A stretch of DNA of 35,163 nt from Verrucomicrobiales bacterium (lineage in GTDB: Bacteria; Verrucomicrobiota; Verrucomicrobiia; Limisphaerales; UBA1100), in assembly GCA_005809105.1 (NCBI GenBank), contig SYLI01000062.1, positions 1 through 35,163 of the forward strand, read 5' to 3'. A model generated the notes under the pieces. It made no database searches, was not told the origin of the DNA, and saw only the letters and a list, made by a program, of their open reading frames with translations. The translations under genes and the position numbers were made by a program. Position 1 is the stretch's first letter. Each line of letters starts with the position of its first letter. Below are positions 2,349-14,552 of the stretch, piece after piece.

Positions 2349-5141
2349 ATGCGCCCGGCCCTTTCCATCCTCGCGATGGTGTTGTGGGCAGTCGCCTGCT
2401 CGCGCCCCGCGCAGCCGGCGGCGGCACCGACCGCGGTGGGGATTGAGGCCGTTCAAATAGGCAACGACGGACTGGCCTACCTGCGCGAAACCGGCAATCC
2501 CTTCACGGGCGTCGTGAGGGTGAATCACACGGAAGGCCCGCAGCAGGCGGAGCTGGCCTTTAAGGCGGGCCGGCAGCATGGGCGGCACCGGGAGTGGTTT
2601 CCTGATGGTAAGCCGTCGTTGGAAAAGGAGTGGGTGGACGGGCAGGAAGAGGGAACGCAGCGCACCTGGACGGCCGAGGGCCGATTGCATCGCGAAAGCC
2701 GCTGGGTGGCCGGCAAGCCGGTGAGTGGGCGCGAGTGGTCACCCGACGGCAAGAAGGAATGGGCCATCAGCTTCACCAACGGCGTGATGGTCGACCGCAA
2801 GATTGCGCGCAATGAGTCACTGACGCTGCCCGAGGAGGATCGCAAGTATCTTTGGAGCATTGAGCACCACGGCGGGCTGCTCATGAAACTTGGCTTTGGA
2901 CCGTGGAAGGCGGCGCTCAAGAAGCGCGAGCGCACTGCGATGAACCGCGCCTTGGCGGTGGACTTTCAGGCCGCCATCGCCCCGGTGGACGGGGGCCAAA
3001 ACTGGGTGCGCGACTACGGGGACGCCGCCCGCGCCGCGCGAACGGATTTCGCCGCGCAGGATCGCAGGGACACCGACGCCTCGGGCTTTCTGGAATGGCT
3101 GCTCGGACTGCGGGGCAACTTTGGCGACACACTCGACGTCGGCAACAGCCTGGCCTCGTTCGCGCCGGTGAAGCGTGACCAAGAGGTCGGACGCTGGGGA
3201 GGCTTGCTTCACATCCGCATGTGGGGCAAGAACACGCTGGGCGGCCCTGCTGAACTCGTGGTCTCGCTCAACATCGAGCTGGATTATCCAACTGAGGCCG
3301 CGTTGGAAAAAGGCGGCTGGCTGCGCCGCTGCTCGGTGGCCAGCATCAAGCGCTCGACATCGAAGGCACCGCTCATGGCCGAGCTGGCGCAGCAAATGGG
3401 ACTGCAGCCGGATCGGATGCACGACAACTGGAAGCATCCGCCCGCCAAAACGATCTCCAATACCGGCGGCGCCTTTAGTTGCGACTTCAACCTCGATGGG
3501 CGCATTGACCTGCTCATCACCGATCCGGGCCTGCCCCGTGGTTTTGAGTTCTACTTGGGCGAGCCCGGCGGGAAGTTCAAGGTGGCCACCACGGAGGTGG
3601 GGCTGCAGCCGGGCCCCAACGATCATTTCTTCTCGCAGGTCGCCTTCGCCGATTTGGATGGCGACGGCTGGGTGGATCTGGTGACCAACGGCGGATCGGT
3701 GTACCGCAACGTGGAGGGCCGCCGGTTTGAAAACGTCACGCGCCAGTCCAACCTGCCGCAGTTGGCGAACCTGCCCAAGCAGTGGGACGCCACCAATTTC
3801 AGCGTGACCGATTATGACCGCGACGGGCAGGTGGATCTCTACATCAACCACACTGATTCCAGCCCGATGGAAGGATCGTGGATCGACGGCAAGATTGGCT
3901 CGAAGGTCGCCAACCAGCTCTTGCGCAACGTGGGCGGATGGCATTTTGACGATGTCACCGCCGCGACGGGCACCGACGGCGGCCACCGGTCCACCTTCGC
4001 CGCCGTGTGGCTGGATGCCGACAACAACCGGTGGCCCGACCTCTACGTCATCAACGAATATGGCAACGGTGTGCTCCTGTTGAACGAGGGCCGTGGAAAA
4101 CCCTTCCGCTCGGTGAACCTCGCGGATTTTGCCTCCGACTTTGGTTCCATGGGACTCACGGCCGGCGACATCGACAACGACGGCCACATCGATCTCTACG
4201 TCGCCAGCATGTATTCCAAGGCCGGCACGCGCGTCTTTGGAAACCTGCGCGCCGACGCCTATCCGCCCGACGTGATGCAGAAGCTGCGCCGCATGGTGGC
4301 CGGCAGCCAGCTCTACCGCAATGCGGGCGGCCTCAAGTTCGAGCCGATGGGCGCGGCGTGGGACCTGCGATCTGTCGGCTGGGCCTACGCGCCCGCGCTG
4401 GTGGATCTGGACAACGACGGATTCCTGGATGTGCTCGCCACCGCGGGCTTCATCAGCCGCGACCGCAGCAAGCCCGACGGCTGACCCTGCCTCTGGCAGG
4501 CTGTCGTGTCACAGCCCTTTGACCGCGGATGCGAGGTGCCCGCGCCGGCCGGCGCCGGCGAACCCGATCCCACGCTCGGCGAACTCTGGGTGGGCAATCC
4601 GCTCATGATTTCCCAGCTGCACAACTTGAGCTGCTACGAGCGCAACCGCGCCTACCTCAATGTCGGCGGCAAAAACTTCGTGGATGCGAGCACCATCACC
4701 GGCACCGACAGCGACGGCGACGGCCGGGCGATTTTCGGGGCGGATCTCAACGACGATGGGCGCGAGGACATCGTGGTGCGCCAGGTGGGCGGTGGTCCGC
4801 TGCTGGTGTTCGAGAACCGCTTCCCCCAGAAAAGCTGGCTCAAGGTCAGCCTGCGAGGCAGGGAGAGCAACCGCCAGGGCATTGGCGCGCGGCTCATCGC
4901 ACACGTGGGCACCCAGCGCATCGTGCGCGAGCTCTGGCCCATCAACACCTTCCACTCGCAGGCTCCGGCCTACGTCCAGTTCGGGCTTGGCAGCCAAACG
5001 CAGGTGGACGAGCTCACCATCCAGTGGCCCTCCGGCAAGGAGCAAAAGCTGGGGCCCATCCCCGCCAACCGTCACGTCCGCATCCTCGAAAGCGCAGCCG
5101 AGTTTGAAACGGTGACGCCCGGCCAGCCCTTCAAGCCCTGA
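2349..5141 (+). CDS. Large MORN / FG-GAP / ASPIC-UnbV lipoprotein, probable selenoprotein (UGA at codon 712)
   Basis: Read through a single in-frame UGA (4482-4484), the product is 930 residues. The ATG at 2349 gives a lipoprotein signal with lipobox AVAC at residue 18. Residues 48-148 hold MORN_2/YwqK-like repeats. Residues 150-370 are a domain I do not recognise. Six FG-GAP-type calcium loops follow near residues 379, 434, 486, 554, 605 and 684 (for example DLDGDGWVD, DIDNDGHID). The UGA comes next, then a seventh loop near 796 (DLNDDGRED) and an ASPIC/UnbV domain at about 828-915. The stop splits one CRTAC1-like architecture and both halves share a frame, so I read it as U in DGUPCLWQ, a Sec-x-Cys pair. 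The alternatives are a nonsense mutation, or two polypeptides with a GTG restart at 4506. It is predicted to be surface-anchored; its function is unknown. It converges on selB with a 3-base gap. Confidence 0.78.
4482..4516 (+). promoter_or_regulatory. In-frame UGA with candidate bacterial SECIS hairpin in the FG-GAP gene
   Basis: The UGA at 4482-4484 is followed by the inverted repeat GGCTGT (4499-4504) / ACAGCC (4511-4516). The stem is six perfect pairs closing a six-base loop, CGTGTC. The loop GU lies 22-23 bases after the UGA. That falls within the spacing known for bacterial SECIS elements, whose apical loop typically has a G(U) recognised by the SelB C-terminal domain. A competing hairpin, CCTGCC (4486-4491) / GGCAGG (4495-4500), shares bases with it and sits too close to the UGA for a SECIS. 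The lower stem is weak, so this is a candidate only. Confidence 0.5.
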
Positions 5142-5144
5142 ACC

Positions 5145-7058
5145 CTAGCGGGCGGCTGCCAGACGCCGCAATTCCCCGACGCGCTCGGTCACGCGGTCGC
5201 GATCCAGCCGTTCCAAGAGTGGAATGATGACGCGTCGGCTGGTGCCCAGCGCCTCGCGCAGGTCGCTCGCCTTAGCCGGTCCGTGCGCGGCGAGAAACGC
5301 ACCCACACGCCGTGACGCCTCCGCGAACGCCTCCGCACTCATCACGAGGTCGGCGCCCACGTCCACCGCCTCGCCCGTCTCCAGCAGGAACCGCAACGCG
5401 CGTATCGCCGCCGGATTGGATTCCAAGTCCTTCCGCGCGGGCGGCTCCAGCGGCCGGGCCAGAAGCTGGTCGCGACAGGACTGGGCGGGCGCCATCAGAT
5501 CGGCCGGCAATGTTGGGCGGTGCGAAGAGCGCGCCAGCACCGTGCCCTGGCGTCTGAAGCCGCCGTCACGACAGAAGTCCTCCAGAAACGGCTCGGCCAG
5601 CTCCATTGCGGCAAAGTGGCGTCCCATAAGCTCGCGCACACGTCGCACGTCGAGCCCCGCCTCATCGGGATGCAAGCCGTGGTATTCATCCACCGCCCCC
5701 GCCACGGCCTGTGCGAGCGCCTGCAACCGTAGGGCATCGGCCCACCAATCGCCCAATGGCCGCACACGGCCCCCGGCCACCAGACACTCCACCGCACCCT
5801 TCACGGCCGCGTCAGAAAAAAGAGACTGCCGCAACAGCTGCGAGCGGTGCGCTGCGCCGTCGCGATCGAGAATCGCGGCCACCCACTGCGCTGGATCCTC
5901 TGGCGACTGCGCGCAGCGATCAAGACAACGCAGCCGCGCCGGCTCCCGGCAGCCGCGCCGTACGCCGGCGGGTTCGAGCACCAGCCCGCCGGCAAGCGTC
6001 GCGCTCTGCGATTGATTGCGAACCACAAACCGGTCACCGGCGAGCATGTACACCGGGTGTTCAAAGCGCAGCTGCGCCAGCGCGGTTTCCCCCGGCCCCA
6101 GCTTCGCCGATTGCAGCAGCACCAGCCGCGCGGGGTGACTGCCGCTGCCCTGATGCACCTGCACGCGGGTGTTGGTGTTGAGCACCCGCGTCCGGGGCGG
6201 CAGTCTTGGGGATCGCACCAGCAGCACTTCCACGATGTCGCTGGCCGCGCCCATCCCTGCGTGGACCAATTGGTCTCCCCGGTGCACATCATCGCAGGAC
6301 ACCTCGGACAGACCCAGCGCGGTGCGGGTGCCGGGCATCGCCTGGGACACCTCGCGGTTGTGCGACTGCAAAGATCGGATGCGCAGAGTGCGACCGGCGG
6401 GCTGCAGCACGACCGGCTCGCCCGTGCGCAGAGCGCCGCCAGCCAGCGTTCCGGTAACCACCGTGCCCATGCCGCGCACGGTGAACACGCGATCGACCGC
6501 CAGCCTCGGCCGGTCGGCTGACGACCGCGGGGGGAGCGCATCCAACACCCTCGCCAGTGCGCCCAGCAATTCCGGAAAACCCGCGCGCGTGACGGACGAG
6601 ACCGGCACCAATTCCGCCGCGCTCAAGGCCGAACCCTCGAGCCGTTCACGGACGTCCTCGGCCGCCAGCGCCACATCCGCGTCATGCAGGTCGGCCTTGG
6701 TGATCGCCACCACGCCGCGCCTCACGCCGAGGTATTCGAGAATCTGCAGGTGCTCCTCGGTCTGCGGCATCCAGCCGTCGTCCGCCGCCACCACCAGCAA
6801 GGCGCAATCCACCGCGCCCATGCCGGCCACCATGTTTTTAACAAAATCTTCGTGGCCGGGCACATCCACGATGCCCACGCTGCAGGATCCGCCGGGCGCC
6901 TCGATGGGCAGGTGTGCGAAGCCCAAATCAATCGTGATGCCCCTCGCCTTTTCCTCGGGCAGCCGGTCCGGATCGGTGCCGGTCAACGCGCGCACGAGCG
7001 AACTCTTGCCATGATCCACATGGCCGGCCGTCGCCACGATGAAGTGGCGCAGACTCAC
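5145..7058 (-). CDS. selB: Selenocysteine-specific elongation factor SelB
   Basis: This 637-residue protein is close to the usual SelB length. GTPase motifs are G1 GHVDHGKS (12-19), G3 DVPGHE (65-70) and G4 TKAD (120-123). EF-Tu-like beta-barrel domains follow, then winged-helix repeats. The C-terminus, GTSRRVIIPLLERLDRDRVT, matches the final winged helix that binds the SECIS hairpin. It delivers Sec-tRNA-Sec to the ribosome at UGA codons bearing a SECIS element. The start is GTG at 7058; its GTGA overlaps the stop of the upstream transglutaminase-like gene, implying translational coupling. It is the last gene of the sel cluster. The convergent FG-GAP selenoprotein gene ends 3 bases beyond its stop, and no terminator is visible between them. 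Confidence 0.97.
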   Translation of the reverse strand: MSLRHFIVATAGHVDHGKSSLVRALTGTDPDRLPEEKARGITIDLGFAHLPIEAPGGSCSVGIVDVPGHEDFVKNMVAGMGAVDCALLVVAADDGWMPQTEEHLQILEYLGVRRGVVAITKADLHDADVALAAEDVRERLEGSALSAAELVPVSSVTRAGFPELLGALARVLDALPPRSSADRPRLAVDRVFTVRGMGTVVTGTLAGGALRTGEPVVLQPAGRTLRIRSLQSHNREVSQAMPGTRTALGLSEVSCDDVHRGDQLVHAGMGAASDIVEVLLVRSPRLPPRTRVLNTNTRVQVHQGSGSHPARLVLLQSAKLGPGETALAQLRFEHPVYMLAGDRFVVRNQSQSATLAGGLVLEPAGVRRGCREPARLRCLDRCAQSPEDPAQWVAAILDRDGAAHRSQLLRQSLFSDAAVKGAVECLVAGGRVRPLGDWWADALRLQALAQAVAGAVDEYHGLHPDEAGLDVRRVRELMGRHFAAMELAEPFLEDFCRDGGFRRQGTVLARSSHRPTLPADLMAPAQSCRDQLLARPLEPPARKDLESNPAAIRALRFLLETGEAVDVGADLVMSAEAFAEASRRVGAFLAAHGPAKASDLREALGTSRRVIIPLLERLDRDRVTERVGELRRLAAAR

Positions 7059-8014
7059 GGCTCGCCAGCGGATTTCAGGCGGCGGAAGCGGAACTCCGCC
7101 TGAACTGGAACGGACTTGCCATCCACTTCCAGAAGCGGTGCGAAGAGGAAGTTGAAGGGGCCCGCGGCGGGGCTTGGCTGGATCTCAATGTCGCGGCCCG
7201 TGCTGATCTCGAACCGGTTGGCGGGGTGGTGCCCGAAGTAGTAGTCCGCCAGCGCGGGGAATCGGGCGGCCTCGCTGAGATCCACCGGCACCCAGTTGCC
7301 TCCGGCAAAGAATTCGGCCCAGCAATGATAGCCCTGAATGATGCCCTCGTCGCGGTCGGCGGGAATGGTGAGGCCAATGGCAAATCGCGCGGGGATTTCC
7401 AAGGCGCGGCACAGCGCGATAAAGTAGGCGTGAAAATCCGTGCAGTTGCCCGCGCAGACGCGCCGCGCGAAGACCGCGTCGCCGCGGCCCCAGCCCTCGC
7501 CGGACTTGTCGTAGCGCATCTGCTCCAGAACATGACGGTACAGTGCCCGCCCCCGGGCCAGATCGTCGCCCGCGCCCCGCGTGCATTCGCGCGCCAGCGT
7601 GATGAAGATCGCGTCGCGCGGAACCAACCGCTCCGGCCGCAGGTGCTCTTTCGCCAAGGCGGCGTCGCCGGCATGCGCCGCCTTCTCGCGGCGTTGCACC
7701 ACATAGCGCGCCTCCAGCACCTGTCCCGATTCGCGCGGGCCCGCGCGCATCACCAGCACCTCATTGCCGTGCGCCGCATCGCGAGCCTGCCGCCAGGGCG
7801 CTGGCGCGGTGACAAGCTTGGATTCAAACCGCTGGAACGCGTCGGTACCGGCCAGCGGCAGCCACAGGGTTCCGGCCTGTTCCAGCGCGGGCACCTTCAC
7901 ACGCTGCGTCACTTCAAAGCGGTCGTTGCCCTGCACGATGGCTTTTTCCGCGCCGCCCACGGAGGCCGCGGCCAATGCCAGCGTCGCCGCCAGTCCCATG
8001 ATGGAGTGGATCAT
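7055..8014 (-). CDS. Exported transglutaminase-like (papain-fold) protein inside the sel operon
   Basis: This is a 319-residue protein with a hydrophobic signal peptide (roughly residues 1-22, ending near ASVGGAEKA). It has a transglutaminase-core domain. The triad is visible as Cys191 in CAGNCTDFH, His230 in GYHCWAEFF and Asp245 in VPVDLSEA, so it should be an active thiol enzyme or protease outside the cytoplasm. The substrate is unknown. It overlaps selA upstream (ATGA) and selB downstream (GTGA) by four bases each, so it is co-translated with core selenocysteine machinery although nothing in its family requires selenium. It could act on a selenoprotein product such as the neighbouring lipoprotein, or be a passenger; the sequence does not decide. 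An alternative start is the ATG at 7999. Confidence 0.88.
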   Translation of the reverse strand: MIHSIMGLAATLALAAASVGGAEKAIVQGNDRFEVTQRVKVPALEQAGTLWLPLAGTDAFQRFESKLVTAPAPWRQARDAAHGNEVLVMRAGPRESGQVLEARYVVQRREKAAHAGDAALAKEHLRPERLVPRDAIFITLARECTRGAGDDLARGRALYRHVLEQMRYDKSGEGWGRGDAVFARRVCAGNCTDFHAYFIALCRALEIPARFAIGLTIPADRDEGIIQGYHCWAEFFAGGNWVPVDLSEAARFPALADYYFGHHPANRFEISTGRDIEIQPSPAAGPFNFLFAPLLEVDGKSVPVQAEFRFRRLKSAGEP

Positions 8015-9372
8015 AATTGGTTGGGTTCTGCCTCTGCTGTCACCGCGTGCCGAAACGCCGCGATGAGTTCGCGATCCTGCTCGGGAAGCACCGTGCGAAG
8101 GTCCACACGAAATCGTTGGCCCGCCACGTAGCCGATGATGGGTGTCGGAGCCTCGCGCATTCGCGCGGCCAGTTCCGCCGGCTCGCAGTCCACCGTCACC
8201 GATGGAATGCGCGCGCGCGGCAGTGTGCCTCCGCCCGCCTGCGCCGTGCCTTCGCCCACTCGCGCATGGAGGGGCAGCTCCCGCAGCGCCCGTACAATCC
8301 GTACCGCGCGACGCTTGAGCGACGCCAAGTCACAAGAGAGCATCGCCTGCACAGGGTTGGCAGCGTGATTTCCCGAAAGATGCTCCTCCACCGTGCCCTG
8401 CATCGCCGCCAGCACCAGCTTGTCGCAGCGAAGCGCGCGAAAAAAGGGCTCGCGCTTCAATGCGGCGACGTGCCGCGCCTTCCCGGCGATCACGCCTGCC
8501 TGCGGCCCGCCCAGCAGCTTGTCGCCGCTAAAACACACCAGCGCCGCGCCCTCTTTCAAAATTTCCGAAGGCGTGGGCTCGTGTTCACCCGCCCAAGAGT
8601 CGGTGGCGCAGGGCGCACCGCTGCCCAGATCGACCACCAGGGGCAGCCGCTTTCGGGCCGCCAGCGCCGCGAGTTCCCCCGCGCCGACCGATGCGACAAA
8701 TCCCTCCATGAAGAAATTGCTCCGGTGCACTTGGAGCAACAATCCCGTGCGCGGCCCGATGGCGCCCGTGTAGTCAGCGAGCGTCGTGCGGTTGGTGGTG
8801 CCCACCTCGCGCATCACCGCCCCGCTGGCCGCCAGAATCTCCGGCACTCGAAAGCCGCCGCCAATCTGCACCAGCTCCCCGCGCGAGATGAGCACCTCCG
8901 GCTTTGCAGCCGTGAAGTGTCGCAACGCCAGAACGAGCGCGGCAGCGCCATTGTTGGTGAGGGCGGCCGCCTCGGCGCCGCACAGCAGCGCCAGAGCGCG
9001 CTCGACGTACGCGGCGCGCCCGGCGCGTTTGCCCTCCGAAAGGTCCATCTCCAGATTGCAGTAGCCGGCCGCGTCCTGAATCCCCTTGAGCGCCCCGGGC
9101 GAAAGGGGTGCGCGGCCGAGGTTGGTGTGGATGACGATGCCGGTGCCGTTAATGACGGGACGAATCCTCGTGCGGGCCGCATCGCGCAGCGCGCGCCTTA
9201 CTCCGCGCACCGCATCTTCAAATTCAGGGACGGCGCGCAACAAACGAAGCCGCGCCAGTTCCCGGCGCACGATGTCCACGACCAAGGGCCGGGGCTGATC
9301 CAACGGGCCCAGCGCGCGGAGCACCTTGTCCACCGACGGCACGGCGCGGCGTTGGGTGGAGTCGGCTGTCAT
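8011..9372 (-). CDS. selA: L-seryl-tRNA(Sec) selenium transferase SelA
   Basis: This 453-residue PLP-dependent enzyme converts Ser-tRNA-Sec to Sec-tRNA-Sec using selenophosphate. Typical SelA signatures are present: an N-terminal helical domain that binds t[20 protein letters not shown] (about 75-91), VGTTNRT (about 190-196), VVDLGSGA (about 246-253) and the PLP lysine in [13 protein letters not shown] (K285). The length is normal. The ATG at 9372 overlaps the selD stop (ATGA), and the 3' end overlaps the next gene in the same way. A bacterial SelA, rather than the archaeal/eukaryal PSTK-SepSecS route, fits the rest of the cluster. Confidence 0.97.
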
Positions 9373-10406
9373 TGGACGAGGACGAGCGGATGTTGGGCCG
9401 GAACGATGCGGCCGATCGGTTCCAACTTAAGCCCGCAGGCCGACGCGGTCTTGAGAAAGGCGTTGACCTCGTGAGGCTCGACGGCGGCGAGGAGTCCGCC
9501 GCTGGTCTGGGGGTCGCACAGCAGCGCGCGCTGCGCGTCGGTGAGCGGCGAAATGTGGTGCCCGTAACTCTCCCAGTTGCGGTCCGCGCCACCCGGTGAG
9601 CAGTCGGCGGCGATGTAGCGGTCGGTGTTGGGCAGCCGCGGGACGCGCGCAAAATCCACGACGGCGCTGACACCACTGCCTTCGCACATCTCCACGAGAT
9701 GCCCTAGCAGCCCGAAACCGGTGACATCTGTGAGGGCGCGCACGCCGGGGAGTTTCCCAAACGCAGCGCCGGCGTCGTTGAGCGTGGTCATCTGCCGCAC
9801 AGCGCGGCCCACATCCTCGGGCTCGGCCAGTCCACGCTTCTGGGCGGTGGTGACCAGCCCGACGCCCAGCGGCTTGGTGAGGAACAACTGGCAGCCGGGC
9901 AGCGCGCGGTCGTTGCGCTTGAGGTGTTCGAGCGCGACGTCACCGGTGACCGCCAGGCCAAAAATGGGTTCGGGCGCATCGATGCTGTGGCCGCCGGCCA
10001 AGGGGATCCCGGCGTCGGCGCACGCAGCGCGGCTGCCATCCAGCACGCGCGCGGCCACCTCCGCGGGGAGTTTTGAGAGCGGCCAGCCCAGAATGGCGAT
10101 GGCCAGGAGCGGCGCGCCGCCCATGGCGTACACATCGCTGATGGCATTGACCGACGCGATGCGGCCAAAGTCGAACGGGTCATCCACGATCGGCATGAAA
10201 AAATCCGTGGTGCTGATCACGGCGCGACCGCCCCCCATGTCGAACACCGCGGCGTCGTCCTTGGATTGATAGCCCACCACCAGCCGCGGATGCGGGGCGT
10301 TCACGCCGCTGCCCAGAATGCTCTCGAGCACCTTCGGCGAGATTTTGCAGCCACAGCCCGCACCGTGGCTGTACTGCGTGAGGCGGATGGGAGGGGTGTC
10401 ACTCAC
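9369..10406 (-). CDS. selD: Selenide, water dikinase SelD (selenophosphate synthetase)
   Basis: The 345-residue protein makes selenophosphate from selenide and ATP, the selenium donor for SelA. The catalytic glycine-rich loop is HGAGCGCK, with Cys18 and Lys21 in the positions of the essential Cys and Lys of the family. Some bacteria carry selenocysteine at the first of these positions; here the codon is an ordinary cysteine codon. Further family motifs are [23 protein letters not shown] and [11 protein letters not shown]. The start is GTG at 10406, giving the correct N-terminus 15 bases after the tRNA-Sec CCA end; no strong Shine-Dalgarno sequence is seen. Its stop overlaps the selA start by four bases. 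Confidence 0.97.
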
Positions 10407-10421
10407 GCGATGAGGAGGGAA

Positions 10422-10518
10422 TGGCGGAGAGGGCAGGAATCGAACCTACCTCGGCCCGGCTAGCGGACCGACAACGGTTTTGAAGACCGCGGGGGCCACC
10501 AGGCACCCTCAACTCTCC
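10422..10518 (-). tRNA. selC: tRNA-Sec (anticodon UCA)
   Basis: This is a 97-base tRNA with encoded CCA. The anticodon arm is GCGGT-CTTCAAA-ACCGT with anticodon TCA. The long variable arm pairs TCGGTCC with GGGCCGA. The T arm is GTAGG-TTCGATT-CCTGC. The acceptor pairs GGAGAG with CTCTCC before discriminator G and CCA. The length, long extra arm, UCA anticodon and G73 resemble E. coli selC. Oddities: after six clear acceptor pairs the seventh would be T-C, and the D stem (GGTGCC/GGCCCC) has one mismatch. The rest of the fold is sound and the position next to selD-selA-selB leaves little doubt. It probably shares a transcript with selW and selD and would need RNase processing. Confidence 0.96.
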
Positions 10519-10570: not shown

Positions 10571-10807
10571 TCAACGCATGGCCTGCACGGCGCGCACGAC
10601 GGCATCCGGGTCGGGGAATCCGCCCGTGGCTTTCTTGGAATGGATCGATTGGCCATCCGCCGTGACCTCGAACACGCCGCCGCTGGAAGGAACCAGCCGG
10701 AGCGCGCCAAGGCGCAGCTTCAACTTCATGAGCTTCTCCGCCAAACTGGCGGCATGCGGCTCATAGTTTCAAGCAGCGCAGTATTCTATGGTGATTTCCT
10801 TGGGCAT
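10571..10807 (-). CDS. selW: SelW-like (Rdx family) selenoprotein with in-frame UGA at codon 13
   Basis: A standard ORF search misses this gene because codon 13 (10771-10769) is TGA. Read as selenocysteine it gives a 78-residue protein starting MPKEITIEYCAAUNYEP, with the redox motif C10-x-x-U13. The second half, GVFEVTADGQSIHSKK followed by GGFPD, matches the SelW/Rdx fold (vertebrate SelW has YCGAUGY and FEVTVAGKLVHSKK). The family is a thioredoxin-like fold thought to handle thiol redox reactions in the cytoplasm; bacterial partners are unclear. A SECIS-like hairpin follows the UGA directly. The ATG at 10807 is the only ATG after an upstream in-frame TAG; the ribosome site is weak. It lies 52 bases upstream of tRNA-Sec on the same strand, probably the first cistron of the sel operon. 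Confidence 0.93.
10722..10771 (-). promoter_or_regulatory. Sec UGA and bacterial SECIS element of selW
   Basis: Immediately after the UGA (10771-10769) the RNA can fold into a long hairpin. The lower stem pairs AACT (10768-10765) with AGTT (10725-10722). The middle stem pairs ATGAGC with GCTCAT, with a two-base GA bulge on the 3' side. An internal loop follows, and the apical stem pairs CCGCCA with TGGCGG around a GTT loop. The apical GU is 23-24 bases after the UGA, within the 16-37 base window known for bacterial SECIS elements. It is the element SelB should bind to decode UGA as selenocysteine. Confidence 0.88.
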
Positions 10808-10906
10808 GACTCGCTGCAGGCGTTGTTTATTGGATGGGTGATGCTGGCTCAGCTAGGACTCTTTGGCCAGCCCGATTTTCCCAATCAAAGCACGCCTTCA
10901 GTTTCC

Positions 10907-10931
10907 AAAAAAAGAGCCGCCCGAAGGCGGC
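10907..10931 (-). terminator. Rho-independent terminator with UUCG tetraloop
   Basis: On the minus strand GCCGCC-TTCG-GGCGGC is followed by TC and seven T residues. The six-pair GC stem, the very stable UUCG loop and the T-tract make a textbook intrinsic terminator. It lies 28 bases beyond the stop of the 38-residue lipoprotein gene and about 100 bases before selW on the same strand, so it isolates the sel cluster from upstream transcription. Confidence 0.9.
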
Positions 10932-10959
10932 CCCTAGATTCAGTGCAAAAAAGCCCGGC

Positions 10960-11076
10960 CTACTTTGACTTGGCGGGGGCGGTCTTGTTGGCGTCTCCAG
11001 CCTTGGTCGATGACTTGCATCCGACCACGAGGAGTGCCGCTGCCAAAACCAGTAGGTATGTCAATTTGATGTTCAT
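10960..11076 (-). CDS. Very small lipoprotein, 38 residues
   Basis: The ORF can be extended upstream, but the ATG at 11076 gives MNIKLTYLLVLAAALLVVGC, a compact signal peptide with lipobox VVGC (Cys20). The mature part is only about 19 residues, Lys/Ala-rich. The protein would be a small lipid-anchored envelope peptide of unknown function. No good ribosome site is visible. It ends just before a strong terminator. It shares strand and type with the glycine-zipper lipoprotein upstream, 177 bases away, and may be cotranscribed with it. Confidence 0.7.
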   Translation of the reverse strand: MNIKLTYLLVLAAALLVVGCKSSTKAGDANKTAPAKSK

Positions 11077-11253
11077 GGATATTCGCCCAACGGGTTGGTT
11101 GTTGAACGGCTTGGATTTAGACAGAAATGCGGGAGGCCTGTCAATAAGCTGTTTGCAACTTTGCTGCAGGCGAAATTCACGCCATCCACACCTCGCCTCC
11201 ACGCTGGAGGGCACTACCGGTGGCGGGCATGCAACCCAAGCCTCACAGATGTC

Positions 11254-11469
11254 TTATGGCTTCTTGGCCTTGTCGCGTTCGTTGCCGATGAGGCCTCCCA
11301 CTGCCGCGCCAGCTCCCGCGCCAAGCAGGGTGCTCTTGGTGTCCTTGCCAATAGCCTGGCCAGCCAAGGCGCCAATCCCTCCACCCAGCAACGCTCCCGT
11401 TCCCGTATCGGTTGCGCAACCCATGAACAAGCTAGAGGCCGTAAGAATCAACAGTGCGATTTTTTTCAT
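11254..11469 (-). CDS. Small glycine-zipper lipoprotein
   Basis: This is a 71-residue protein with lipoprotein signal MKKIALLILTASSLFMGC (lipobox FMGC, Cys18). It then has two Gly/Ala-rich hydrophobic stretches, GALLGGGIGALAGQAIG and LLGAGAGAAVGGLIGNE, of the glycine-zipper type found in OsmB/YMGG-like and SlyB-like outer-membrane lipoproteins. The C-terminus is basic. The start is supported by AAAGGAAGC directly upstream of the ATG. Such proteins usually associate with the outer membrane and are often stress-induced; that role is inferred from the family. A promoter-like pair of boxes lies 40-70 bases upstream. Confidence 0.88.
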   Translation of the reverse strand: MKKIALLILTASSLFMGCATDTGTGALLGGGIGALAGQAIGKDTKSTLLGAGAGAAVGGLIGNERDKAKKP

Positions 11470-11508
11470 GCTTCCTTTCGAATGACAATCCAGTCGAACG
11501 TTGGGCTG

Positions 11509-11621: not shown

Positions 11622-12542
11622 ATGCCATCCTCTCCCATGAACTCGTCACGCCGATCTTGGATCAAGGCCGCTGCGACGGCCGGGGCAACCGCAACGGCCA
11701 TGGCTGCCACGAACCTCGCCGCGCAAGTGCCCGCATCAAAGGCCGATCCCAAGTTTCGCGTCAAGCAGGGGCGCATCCGCCAGTCGATCATGGGCTGGAC
11801 CTACAACCCGATGCCGACACTGGAGCTGGCGCAGCACTGCAAGGACATCGGCCTCGTGGCGATGGAAGGGATCGCCGCCAAGGACTATCCGGCCGTGCGC
11901 AAGCTCGGGCTGGCGATCTCGCTCGTGAGCAGCCACGGTTTTGCGAAGGGGCCGTTCACGAATGCGAACCACGCGTTCTGCATCCAGAAGCTGCACGAGT
12001 CCATTGACCTTGCCGCCCAGGTGGGCTGTCCTGGCATCATCACCTTCACCGGAATGCGCGAGGCGGGCATCACCGACGCGCAGGGCGCGAAGAACTGTGT
12101 GGAGTGCTGGAAGCAGGTGATGGCACATGCCGAGGAGAAGAAGATCAATGTGTGCTTGGAACATCTGAACTCACGCGACGCCACGCACCCCATGAAGGGA
12201 CACCCGGGTTACTTTGGCGACGATGTGGATTTCTGCGTGGAGCTGATTCGCCGCGTGGATTCTCCCCGCATGAAACTTCTCTTCGACATCTACCACGTGC
12301 AAATCATGAACGGCAACGTGATTGACCGCATTCGCCGATACAAGGACGTGATTGGCCACTATCACACCGCGGGCAATCCCGGGCGGGGCGAGCTCGACGA
12401 GTCGCAGGAGATCAACTATCCAGCCGTGATGAGGGCCATTTTGGAAACGGGCTACACTGGATTTGTGGCGCAGGAATTCATCCCCACTTGGCCGGACAAA
12501 GTGCTGGCACTACGTCATGCCGCGATGGTGTGCGACGTCTAG
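11622..12542 (+). CDS. Tat-exported hydroxypyruvate-isomerase-like TIM-barrel protein
   Basis: This 306-residue protein begins with a Tat-type signal (SSRRSWIKAAATAG, cleavage likely near NLAAQ). A xylose-isomerase-like TIM barrel of the hydroxypyruvate isomerase branch follows. Likely metal and substrate residues appear in CLEHLNS, LLFDIYHVQ, GHYHTAGNPGR and FVAQEF, all at the ends of barrel strands as in Hyi/IolE-type enzymes. It probably isomerises or epimerises a keto-sugar or sugar acid outside the cytoplasm; the substrate is unknown. The nearer ATG at 11637 is an equally possible start. Its stop codon overlaps that of the convergent carbonic anhydrase gene. Confidence 0.82.
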   Translation: MPSSPMNSSRRSWIKAAATAGATATAMAATNLAAQVPASKADPKFRVKQGRIRQSIMGWTYNPMPTLELAQHCKDIGLVAMEGIAAKDYPAVRKLGLAISLVSSHGFAKGPFTNANHAFCIQKLHESIDLAAQVGCPGIITFTGMREAGITDAQGAKNCVECWKQVMAHAEEKKINVCLEHLNSRDATHPMKGHPGYFGDDVDFCVELIRRVDSPRMKLLFDIYHVQIMNGNVIDRIRRYKDVIGHYHTAGNPGRGELDESQEINYPAVMRAILETGYTGFVAQEFIPTWPDKVLALRHAAMVCDV

Positions 12543-13819
12543 GCGCGGCTGTAAAGGCCGCCCACCCGGCCGCGAATTTGACACTTGGATGCAATCGGCC
12601 GACGGCGGCGCTTGGGGGCGGGAGCGGGAATGGTGGCGGATGCCGCGCCAAACGGTGCGGACTTGAGGACGAACCTCCCCTTGAGCGCCTGCGGCGGCCG
12701 CGCGTTCAGGGGAAAGAGTTTTCGGAACGCGTCCACCTGCGCGGTCGAGCAATGCACCTGCTCGGTCATCACCGTCCAGAGAACGCCCTCCGTGCAAGGC
12801 GGCGTGGTGAGTGAACCGTTGTAGCGGAAGTATCCGCGCGCAACAGGCAGCAGCTGCGCGGGATTGAGCCCCGCCTCGGTCGCCTTTGCCTTGCCGTCCT
12901 TTTCCGCAGGCATCTTGCTCCACACCTTGGTGATCAGCGGGTGTTCCGTGTCCCCCTGTTCGATGAGCACACCCACCACCGCCAGCCTGCCGTCCAGCAC
13001 GTGCTTGTGCACCAAGTGCACTTCCAACGGCGCGAAGCGGCCCTTGATGGTGTGCTCGCTGGGCAGATGGAAATGGAACTGCAAAAGCTGGTAGGGTTGA
13101 TCGTCAATGGTGGCAAAGTTTCCGGGCGCGCAGTTGGCCTGAATGGTGTGGCCGTTGTTGACGATTTCCATCGGGCCATCACTGTAGTAGAACCTGATTT
13201 CCGGCAGGCTCTCGCTGGCCAGCGCCGTGTCGGGATTGATGTCGATGGGTGATTGACGCAAGCCCTTCTCCGCCAATTCCACTCCCAATGCGCCCCACTT
13301 GGCCGGGCCATTCTCGTGTTCATAACCCCAATGCGGTGCCGCGCCATGGCCAGCGGCGTGAGCATCGTGGCCTGCCTTGCCAGCAGATTTTTCGCCGTGC
13401 TTTTCCGGTGCATGAGCCGGTGCAAGGGCTGGCGGATGGGCCGGTGCATGCCCGGCCGGCGAGGGCAGTGCAGGTGGCGCCTTGGGTGCGCCCGGTGCGG
13501 CGGCTTCGTGTGGGGCAGCGTGGTCGTCTGTCTTCTGATGGCCCGGCAAGGCGGGCGCCGTGTGCGAGGGCTCTTTCGCCGCGGCGGATGGCGCAGGGGC
13601 GGCATGTCCGGCGTCATGGCCGACCGCTGGGTTGGCGGCCGCAGCCACCAGCGGCTGGGGCAGATGCGACGCGGGCGACACCTTGAGCGTGCGCTCCAGA
13701 AAAACGTACCACAACGCCGCGGTGGCCAGTGCCGCAAGAAGCGACGGCACCCCCACGGTCATCAGCATCGCCTTGACGGGCGAGGGCGCCGTCGTTTGCT
13801 TCGCATGGTCAGTAGCCAT
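12539..13819 (-). CDS. Membrane-anchored alpha-carbonic anhydrase with His/Ala/Pro-rich linker
   Basis: From the ATG at 13819 the product is 426 residues. A single membrane segment (about 17-41) is followed by a low-complexity His/Ala/Pro linker (about 50-160) and an alpha-carbonic anhydrase domain (about 162-400). The CA domain has RQSPIDI, the zinc ligands H249 and H251 in QFHFHLPSEH, H268 in EVHLVHKH, and SLTTPPCTEGVLW. All three zinc histidines are present, so it should hydrate CO2 in the periplasm. The linker contains about 17 histidines and could bind metal. The C-terminus has an extra basic stretch (KRRRR). The ORF extends upstream to 13984, but that part is not protein-like. The 3' end overlaps the convergent TIM-barrel gene by four bases. 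Confidence 0.9.
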   Translation of the reverse strand: MATDHAKQTTAPSPVKAMLMTVGVPSLLAALATAALWYVFLERTLKVSPASHLPQPLVAAAANPAVGHDAGHAAPAPSAAAKEPSHTAPALPGHQKTDDHAAPHEAAAPGAPKAPPALPSPAGHAPAHPPALAPAHAPEKHGEKSAGKAGHDAHAAGHGAAPHWGYEHENGPAKWGALGVELAEKGLRQSPIDINPDTALASESLPEIRFYYSDGPMEIVNNGHTIQANCAPGNFATIDDQPYQLLQFHFHLPSEHTIKGRFAPLEVHLVHKHVLDGRLAVVGVLIEQGDTEHPLITKVWSKMPAEKDGKAKATEAGLNPAQLLPVARGYFRYNGSLTTPPCTEGVLWTVMTEQVHCSTAQVDAFRKLFPLNARPPQALKGRFVLKSAPFGAASATIPAPAPKRRRRPIASKCQIRGRVGGLYSRA

Positions 13820-13955
13820 AGGTATGGTGTCGGATGAATTGGGCGCCCACTTGAGCGGAATGTGCAGCACTACCCTGCTCGTTCCCCCCACCGATGTCAA
13901 TGCGCCTGCCAAAACGGTTGCCAAAGCCCCACTCGCCGGGGAGACTGGCACGGTC

Positions 13956-14552
13956 TTGAGGACTCGATCCACCGGCAACTTCATCCTTCAACGAATCCCG
14001 TGCTGGTGCCTGGTGCTGGCGGTGCTGACGTCGGCTGGGGCGGCCGACGCGCGCAATCCCAAGTGGGCGCGGCCGCTCAAGCTGGAGGGTGCGCCGAACC
14101 TGCATCAGGTGACCGACGGCCTCTACCGCAGCGCGCAACCCACCGCCGAGGGTTTTCGCAACCTGAAGAAGCTGGGCGTGCGCACCGTGGTCAATTTGCG
14201 CGCCTTCCATTCCGACGTGGACGAGCTGGACAAGTCCGCGCTCAATTACGTGCCCATCCCCATGGTGGCGTGGTATCCGGAGGAGGAGGAGGTGATCCAG
14301 TTCCTGAAGCTGGCCACCAACCCCAAGCTTGCGCCCGTGGTGGTGCATTGCCAGCACGGGGCCGACCGCACGGGCACGCTCTGCGCTGTGTACCGCATCG
14401 TGGTGCAGGGATGGACCAAGGACGCCGCCATCGAGGAAATGCAGAAGGGCGGCTACGGTTTCCACGCGGTGTTCGTCAACCTGGAGCGGTACCTGCGCAA
14501 GCTGGATGTCGGGCGCATCCGCGCACGCGCCGGGTTGGCCCCGCCCCAATGA
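13956..14552 (+). CDS. Exported dual-specificity/tyrosine phosphatase-like protein
   Basis: The conserved part contains VTDGLYRSAQPT, VVNLR and the phosphatase loop VVHCQHGADRTG (C-x5-R), as in bacterial DSP/PTP-like phosphatases that lie close to inositol phosphatases. The TTG at 13956 is chosen because it gives a basic stretch followed by a hydrophobic signal (CWCLVLAVLTSAGAADA) with GGGGAG 12 bases upstream; the product would be 198 residues. The ATG at 13860 is an alternative start that adds 32 residues of little protein character. The enzyme would act in the periplasm; the substrate is unknown. It is divergent from the carbonic anhydrase gene. Confidence 0.82.
   Translation: MRTRSTGNFILQRIPCWCLVLAVLTSAGAADARNPKWARPLKLEGAPNLHQVTDGLYRSAQPTAEGFRNLKKLGVRTVVNLRAFHSDVDELDKSALNYVPIPMVAWYPEEEEVIQFLKLATNPKLAPVVVHCQHGADRTGTLCAVYRIVVQGWTKDAAIEEMQKGGYGFHAVFVNLERYLRKLDVGRIRARAGLAPPQ

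Follow-up and report, generated by a model that had tools for sequence, protein, structure and literature searches.

Among characterised selenoproteins, the thioredoxin-like fold is found in most, and for almost every one of them the Cys homologues are by far more numerous (PMC13188914). The TlpA-, Prx- and deiodinase-like selenoproteins (PMC13188914, Table 1) resemble the family presented here in their UGA-encoded selenocysteine (Sec), their bSECIS element and their likely thiol redox chemistry. However, these proteins build a thioredoxin-like fold around the Sec. In our family the inferred Sec lies in a beta-propeller, and any thioredoxin-like domain forms a module of its own at the C-terminus, with a CxxC. 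A like logic, in which a nucleophilic Sec is followed by a resolving thiol or thioredoxin step, is used by the MsrA selenoprotein and by Msr enzymes with thioredoxin, but we found no relation in sequence or fold and the likeness is one of analogy only. With respect to the fold, the described counterpart is murine CRTAC1, which has the FG-GAP_3 and UnbV_ASPIC domains in common with our protein and to which no redox role is assigned in the literature examined. Compared to CRTAC1, the bacterial group has an extra N-terminal part and a Sec placed in a loop-helix, together with either a UxC motif or a thioredoxin domain fused to the protein. With respect to the locus, the Sec operon of planctomycete P2 (PMC4807772, Fig. 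6) also has a transglut_core gene among its sel genes; FG-GAP or UnbV selenoproteins are not named in the main text of that paper.

The stretch of DNA that we analysed (35,163 nucleotides, hereafter the window) is the entire contig C46 of a 2.99 Mb genome that is 96% complete. Its features are the following, the last two lying elsewhere in the same genome:

2349-5141, + strand: predicted selenoprotein gene of the CRTAC1 (FG-GAP / ASPIC-UnbV) type, 930 residues with UGA counted as Sec
2349-2399, + strand: signal peptide with a probable lipobox AVAC and Cys17, recognised by eye and inferred
4482-4484, + strand: UGA, inferred to be read as selenocysteine 712
4488-4490, + strand: Cys714, second residue of the UxC motif
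4499-4516, + strand: predicted bSECIS hairpin, 6-bp stem GGCUGU/ACAGCC and 6-nt loop CGUGUC (4505-4510), 20 nt from UGA to loop
4878-5078, + strand: UnbV_ASPIC domain (Pfam), residues 844-910, wholly 3' of the UGA
5145-7058, - strand: selB, TIGR00475 above cut-off, convergent and 3 bp from the selenoprotein gene
7055-8014, - strand: transglutaminase-core protein (Pfam), inside the sel operon
8011-9372, - strand: selA
9369-10406, - strand: selD, Cys form (GAGCGCK)
10422-10518, - strand: tRNA-Sec (selC), anticodon UCA
G000:C2:33529-33954: deiodinase-like selenoprotein gene L179 (GSYTUPPF), one UGA, a known type
G000:C14:108684-109052: peroxiredoxin selenoprotein gene L180 (TGGUTAQC), one UGA, a known type

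The first-pass annotation had described the gene at 2349-5141 as a frame broken by nothing other than one UGA, with the ASPIC/UnbV domain continuing past it, lying 3 bases from selB in a locus with full Sec machinery. All of this was borne out: the only internal stop is the TGA at codon 712, within the residues KPDG-U-P-C-L-W-Q, there is no frameshift, UnbV_ASPIC follows in the same frame, and selA, selB, selD and tRNA-Sec are all in the window, selB being tail to tail with the gene. The terminal stop is also a TGA. The protein had been named MORN/FG-GAP/ASPIC-UnbV, a name that holds only in part, since Pfam recovers FG-GAP_3 (125.6 bits) and UnbV_ASPIC (55.1 bits) above cut-offs but MORN is not significant in the window protein at a threshold of E 0.001; MORN_2 is matched by 2 of the 25 aligned members. 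Judging from its N-terminus, the product is probably exported and lipid-anchored, although the lipobox was recognised by eye, as were the lipobox-like LTAC and LVSC of relatives. Regarding the sel operon, we observed that the transglutaminase-core gene is inserted between selB and selA and overlaps each of them by 4 bp.

The UGA is conserved. Every strong homologue among 58 relatives shares a single TGA at this codon, with an identity of 72% within the genus and about 50% elsewhere, and the first seven homologues share the motif KPDGU[PS]CLWQ[AV]VV[SA]QPFDR. When 320 genomes of the order were searched, three further copies were found. A scan of genome contigs with a single protein gave no match, but an alignment-based scan found 23 loci, all with TGA (some of them genes already counted), in Verrucomicrobiota, Planctomycetota, Acidobacteriota and one Chloroflexota MAG, and a clear gap in score separates them from generic CRTAC proteins. 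With the Planctomycetota sample included, UGA occupies this codon in 40/40 members of this group (subfamily I, PDGU motif), so that the outcome that would have refuted a Sec, an ordinary sense codon in close homologues, is absent from the alignment. P709, D710, G711, residue 712, C714, W716, Q722 and P723 are invariant in the 25 members aligned; in L107, one of the 40 and found later, Pro replaces Cys714. Between the window gene and its nearest relative L025, purifying selection is the same before (dN/dS 0.19) and after (0.20) the UGA. Four related copies (L109, L113, L124 and L053) have extra in-frame stops, TAG or TGA, including two TAG in L109 and three TGA in L124, and may be pseudogenes or assembly errors.

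By measuring synonymous constraint over 315 columns of the codon alignment, we found the strongest peak of the gene at codons 717-722, with z of 4.7-15.8 compared to an average of 0.7 over the gene. Ala718, for example, is GCT in 24/24 and Ser721 is TCA in 19/22, while the codons just past the peak are free of such constraint. A hairpin begins 14 nt past the UGA, and the apical G-U that had been placed 22-23 bases after the UGA on first inspection is indeed at that distance, in its loop. According to the published bSECIS model (PMC13188914), the loop has 3-9 nt with a G in its first two positions, the stem has 4-16 bp, the spacing is 16-37 nt and the MFE is at or below -7.5 kcal/mol. The window hairpin fits this model (spacing 20, loop 6 with G at position 2, stem 6, -7.8 kcal/mol); taken alone, it is only weakly unusual (p 0.04). 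Across the family, 64/83 Sec members meet the model (34/40 in subfamily I and 30/43 in subfamily II, described below), and synonymous resamples do so in 12% and 11% of cases, respectively; 4/14 non-Sec paralogues meet it, where 15% are expected. The subfamily I stem is paired in 98% of cells, with double changes from C-G to U-A and from U-A to C-G, and its covariation score is 0.134 compared to 0.088±0.010 in shuffles.

Then, we looked at the hosts. Among the genomes of the order, tRNA-Sec at 60 bits or more is found in 7/8 of those with the gene and in 70/312 of those without (Fisher p 0.00024, kinship uncorrected). Because tRNA-Sec by Rfam alone is too noisy, with matches near or under the cut-off in 13 or 14 of the 14 control genomes as well, selB was added as a marker. 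It is above the NCBIfam cut-off in 22/25 host genomes; of the three others (G063, G904 and G910, all draft), two show no selB and one a partial sub-threshold match. The window has its selB neighbourhood in common with G001 and, judged by coordinates, with G016. The window's genome encodes the two selenoproteins of known type listed above, and no CMD/AhpD-type selenoprotein was found when searching it.

A second group emerged from 294 sampled Planctomycetota genomes, 66 of which had profile matches, most of them with one TGA; members often occur in several copies per genome. This subfamily II has the motif D[LT]USxxW with the Sec at the aligned position and comprises 43 UGA members, mostly from Planctomycetota, which makes the family larger than the first-pass annotation supposed. 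Its hairpin has its own sequence and register (stem 15-20 with 26-31, the U of UGA being 1) and is supported by covariation, with 30 doubly changed cells versus 9.0±2.5 in shuffles and far lower values in slid controls. In the tree, subfamily I (39 rows, all Sec, support 100) is separate from subfamily II, within which the Sec label needs few changes.

Sec-less relatives mostly have N, E, A, R, Q or I at the Sec position. According to the first-pass annotation, related proteins can have a Cys followed by an aromatic residue there. This is partly right: a Cys is at the aligned position in one distant paralogue clade with the motif DYCTTFW (L002-L004 and L148), which includes paralogues from the window's own genome and stands apart in the tree. 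No close Cys homologues were found, which counts against a Sec, since selenoproteins usually have them. Three of these paralogues (L002-L004) adjoin each other on contig C64 of that genome, with DYCTT[FY]W.

Many subfamily II proteins carry a thioredoxin-like domain at their C-terminus. AhpC-TSA is matched by 18/32 subfamily II members and by 0/10 Sec-less relatives, and the WxxxCxxC motif of this domain is present in 24/31 complete subfamily II Sec proteins versus 0/9 non-Sec proteins (p 4e-5, kinship uncorrected). When corrected for kinship, 4-5 independent pairs go in the same direction or are tied, which is too few for significance. Six Sec-less relatives retain the domain without its CxxC, as in the change from WSTTCAAC to WSVEDRNS, and others have no domain. 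In these six (L136, L138, L143, L145, L146 and L147) the Sec is replaced by E, A or Q, and we see here a correlated decay of two redox sites. Subfamily I has no fused thioredoxin-like domain and has the UxC instead.

The AlphaFold model of the window protein (pLDDT 92, pTM 0.93) has as its best PDB match murine CRTAC1 (9etn; Z 37.1, 452 residues aligned, rmsd 2.7 Å, 18% identity), which is also first in Foldseek, so that the predicted model has a CRTAC1-type fold. Sec712 (model residue 563) would be the first residue of a predicted helix.

From sequence evidence, and without any experimental demonstration of selenium incorporation, we hold it to be nearly certain that UGA 712 is decoded as selenocysteine. 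SelB and tRNA-Sec, encoded next door, would decode it with the help of the SECIS hairpin. That the Sec moreover has a functional role, whatever the substrate, is in our opinion very likely. As to what this role may be, we infer that the Sec is a redox nucleophile and that it sits where a helix inserted into the propeller begins. Once oxidised, it may be resolved by Cys714, two residues on, in subfamily I, and by the fused TlpA-like thioredoxin domain in subfamily II. If Cys714 or the thioredoxin domain re-reduces the Sec in this way, the protein would act outside the cytoplasm as a thiol-dependent oxidoreductase, on a substrate that is not known and could for example be a peroxide, sulfoxide or disulfide. 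The redox-type pair suggested at the outset, a Sec with a Cys two residues on, gains support from the UxC, which is invariant in the 25 aligned members and lacks its Cys in L107, outside that set, and also from the thioredoxin-like domain that subfamily II keeps and loses together with the Sec. The distribution of the fused WxxxCxxC likewise suggests a redox enzyme that is coupled to thiols and works outside the cytoplasm. We consider a thiol-coupled redox role probable, as an inference, with the substrate not identified.

A real Sec could also be a ligand for a metal (e.g. copper, mercury or arsenic) and not a redox catalyst, in which case the thioredoxin domain would keep it reduced. The UxC and Cys728 are close together in the window protein, metal binding has been proposed for several Sec proteins, and the Glu, Asn and Gln at the Sec site of some paralogues could be ligands too. 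However, Cys728 is unconserved in the wider family, the subfamily II propeller has no second conserved Cys, and an electron-transfer pair accounts better for Sec and CxxC being lost together. Metal binding by the Sec remains possible, but as an explanation in place of catalysis we find it unlikely.

Even less survives of the idea that the UGA is read otherwise, being reassigned to Trp or another residue or subject to leaky readthrough giving two products. Bacteria are known to read through UGA, and export would not be lost in a 711-residue product that lacks the UnbV domain. On the other side, the window gene itself and other family members end with UGA, the distant paralogue clade has Cys and not Trp at the Sec position, a hairpin lies at SECIS distance, and the UGA-bearing genomes carry selB. 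Code reassignment is rejected on the alignments, and any such reading seems to us very improbable. A nonsense mutation, an assembly error or a pseudogene stop, which one lone stop in a contig of a draft genome and the extra stops of L109 and L124 could suggest, has practically no chance of being right and is rejected on the same alignments, the codon being UGA in 83 proteins of two subfamilies (40 + 43), with no TAA or TAG seen there among family members, and selection being maintained past it (dN/dS about 0.2 on both sides).

The proposal in the first-pass annotation that the type is undescribed holds for the 2026 inventory and for NCBIfam 20, and the gene belongs to what is apparently a large selenoprotein group of Verrucomicrobiota, Planctomycetota and Acidobacteriota, unreported so far. 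No FG-GAP, UnbV or CRTAC entry is among the 119 prokaryotic selenoprotein families of the 2026 inventory (PMC13188914, Table 1), no selenoprotein model of NCBIfam 20 reaches its cut-off and no model of that release covers the family, and the families of PMC12013261, to the extent that a 2026 review gives them, include none of FG-GAP/UnbV kind. Literature searches for such a selenoprotein returned nothing; because preprints, subscription journals and supplementary files were outside their scope, priority is provisional. The contrast with known selenoproteins lies in a Sec placed in a CRTAC1-type propeller and in the few Cys homologues. Going further, we lean, by a narrow margin, towards a widespread and unreported superfamily of beta-propeller selenoenzymes, in which the Sec would be ancestral in at least one branch and not an upgrade of a Cys enzyme. 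If true, the UxC or fused CxxC domain that accompanies the Sec, the latter being lost with it, would mean that a redox reaction not known so far takes place outside the cytoplasm and is common among PVC bacteria. An annotation taking the UGA as a stop would split such genes and miss the C-terminal domain, and the joint loss of Sec and CxxC is a direct and testable lead on the role of bacterial CRTAC-type proteins.

Regarding gene neighbourhoods, those of 20 subfamily I genes show no fixed operon, and the commonest neighbours are other FG-GAP/UnbV genes, TPR proteins and sulfatases. In two Planctomycetota, homologous two-CxxCH proteins, without a Pfam match, are encoded directly 3' of subfamily I genes (L030:3935-5626 and L033:12343-14007). 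In the window, a 281-residue ORF without a Pfam match (10640-11485, + strand) adjoins tRNA-Sec, and a protein with a eukaryotic-type (alpha) carbonic anhydrase domain is encoded near the sel operon (12539-13984, - strand).
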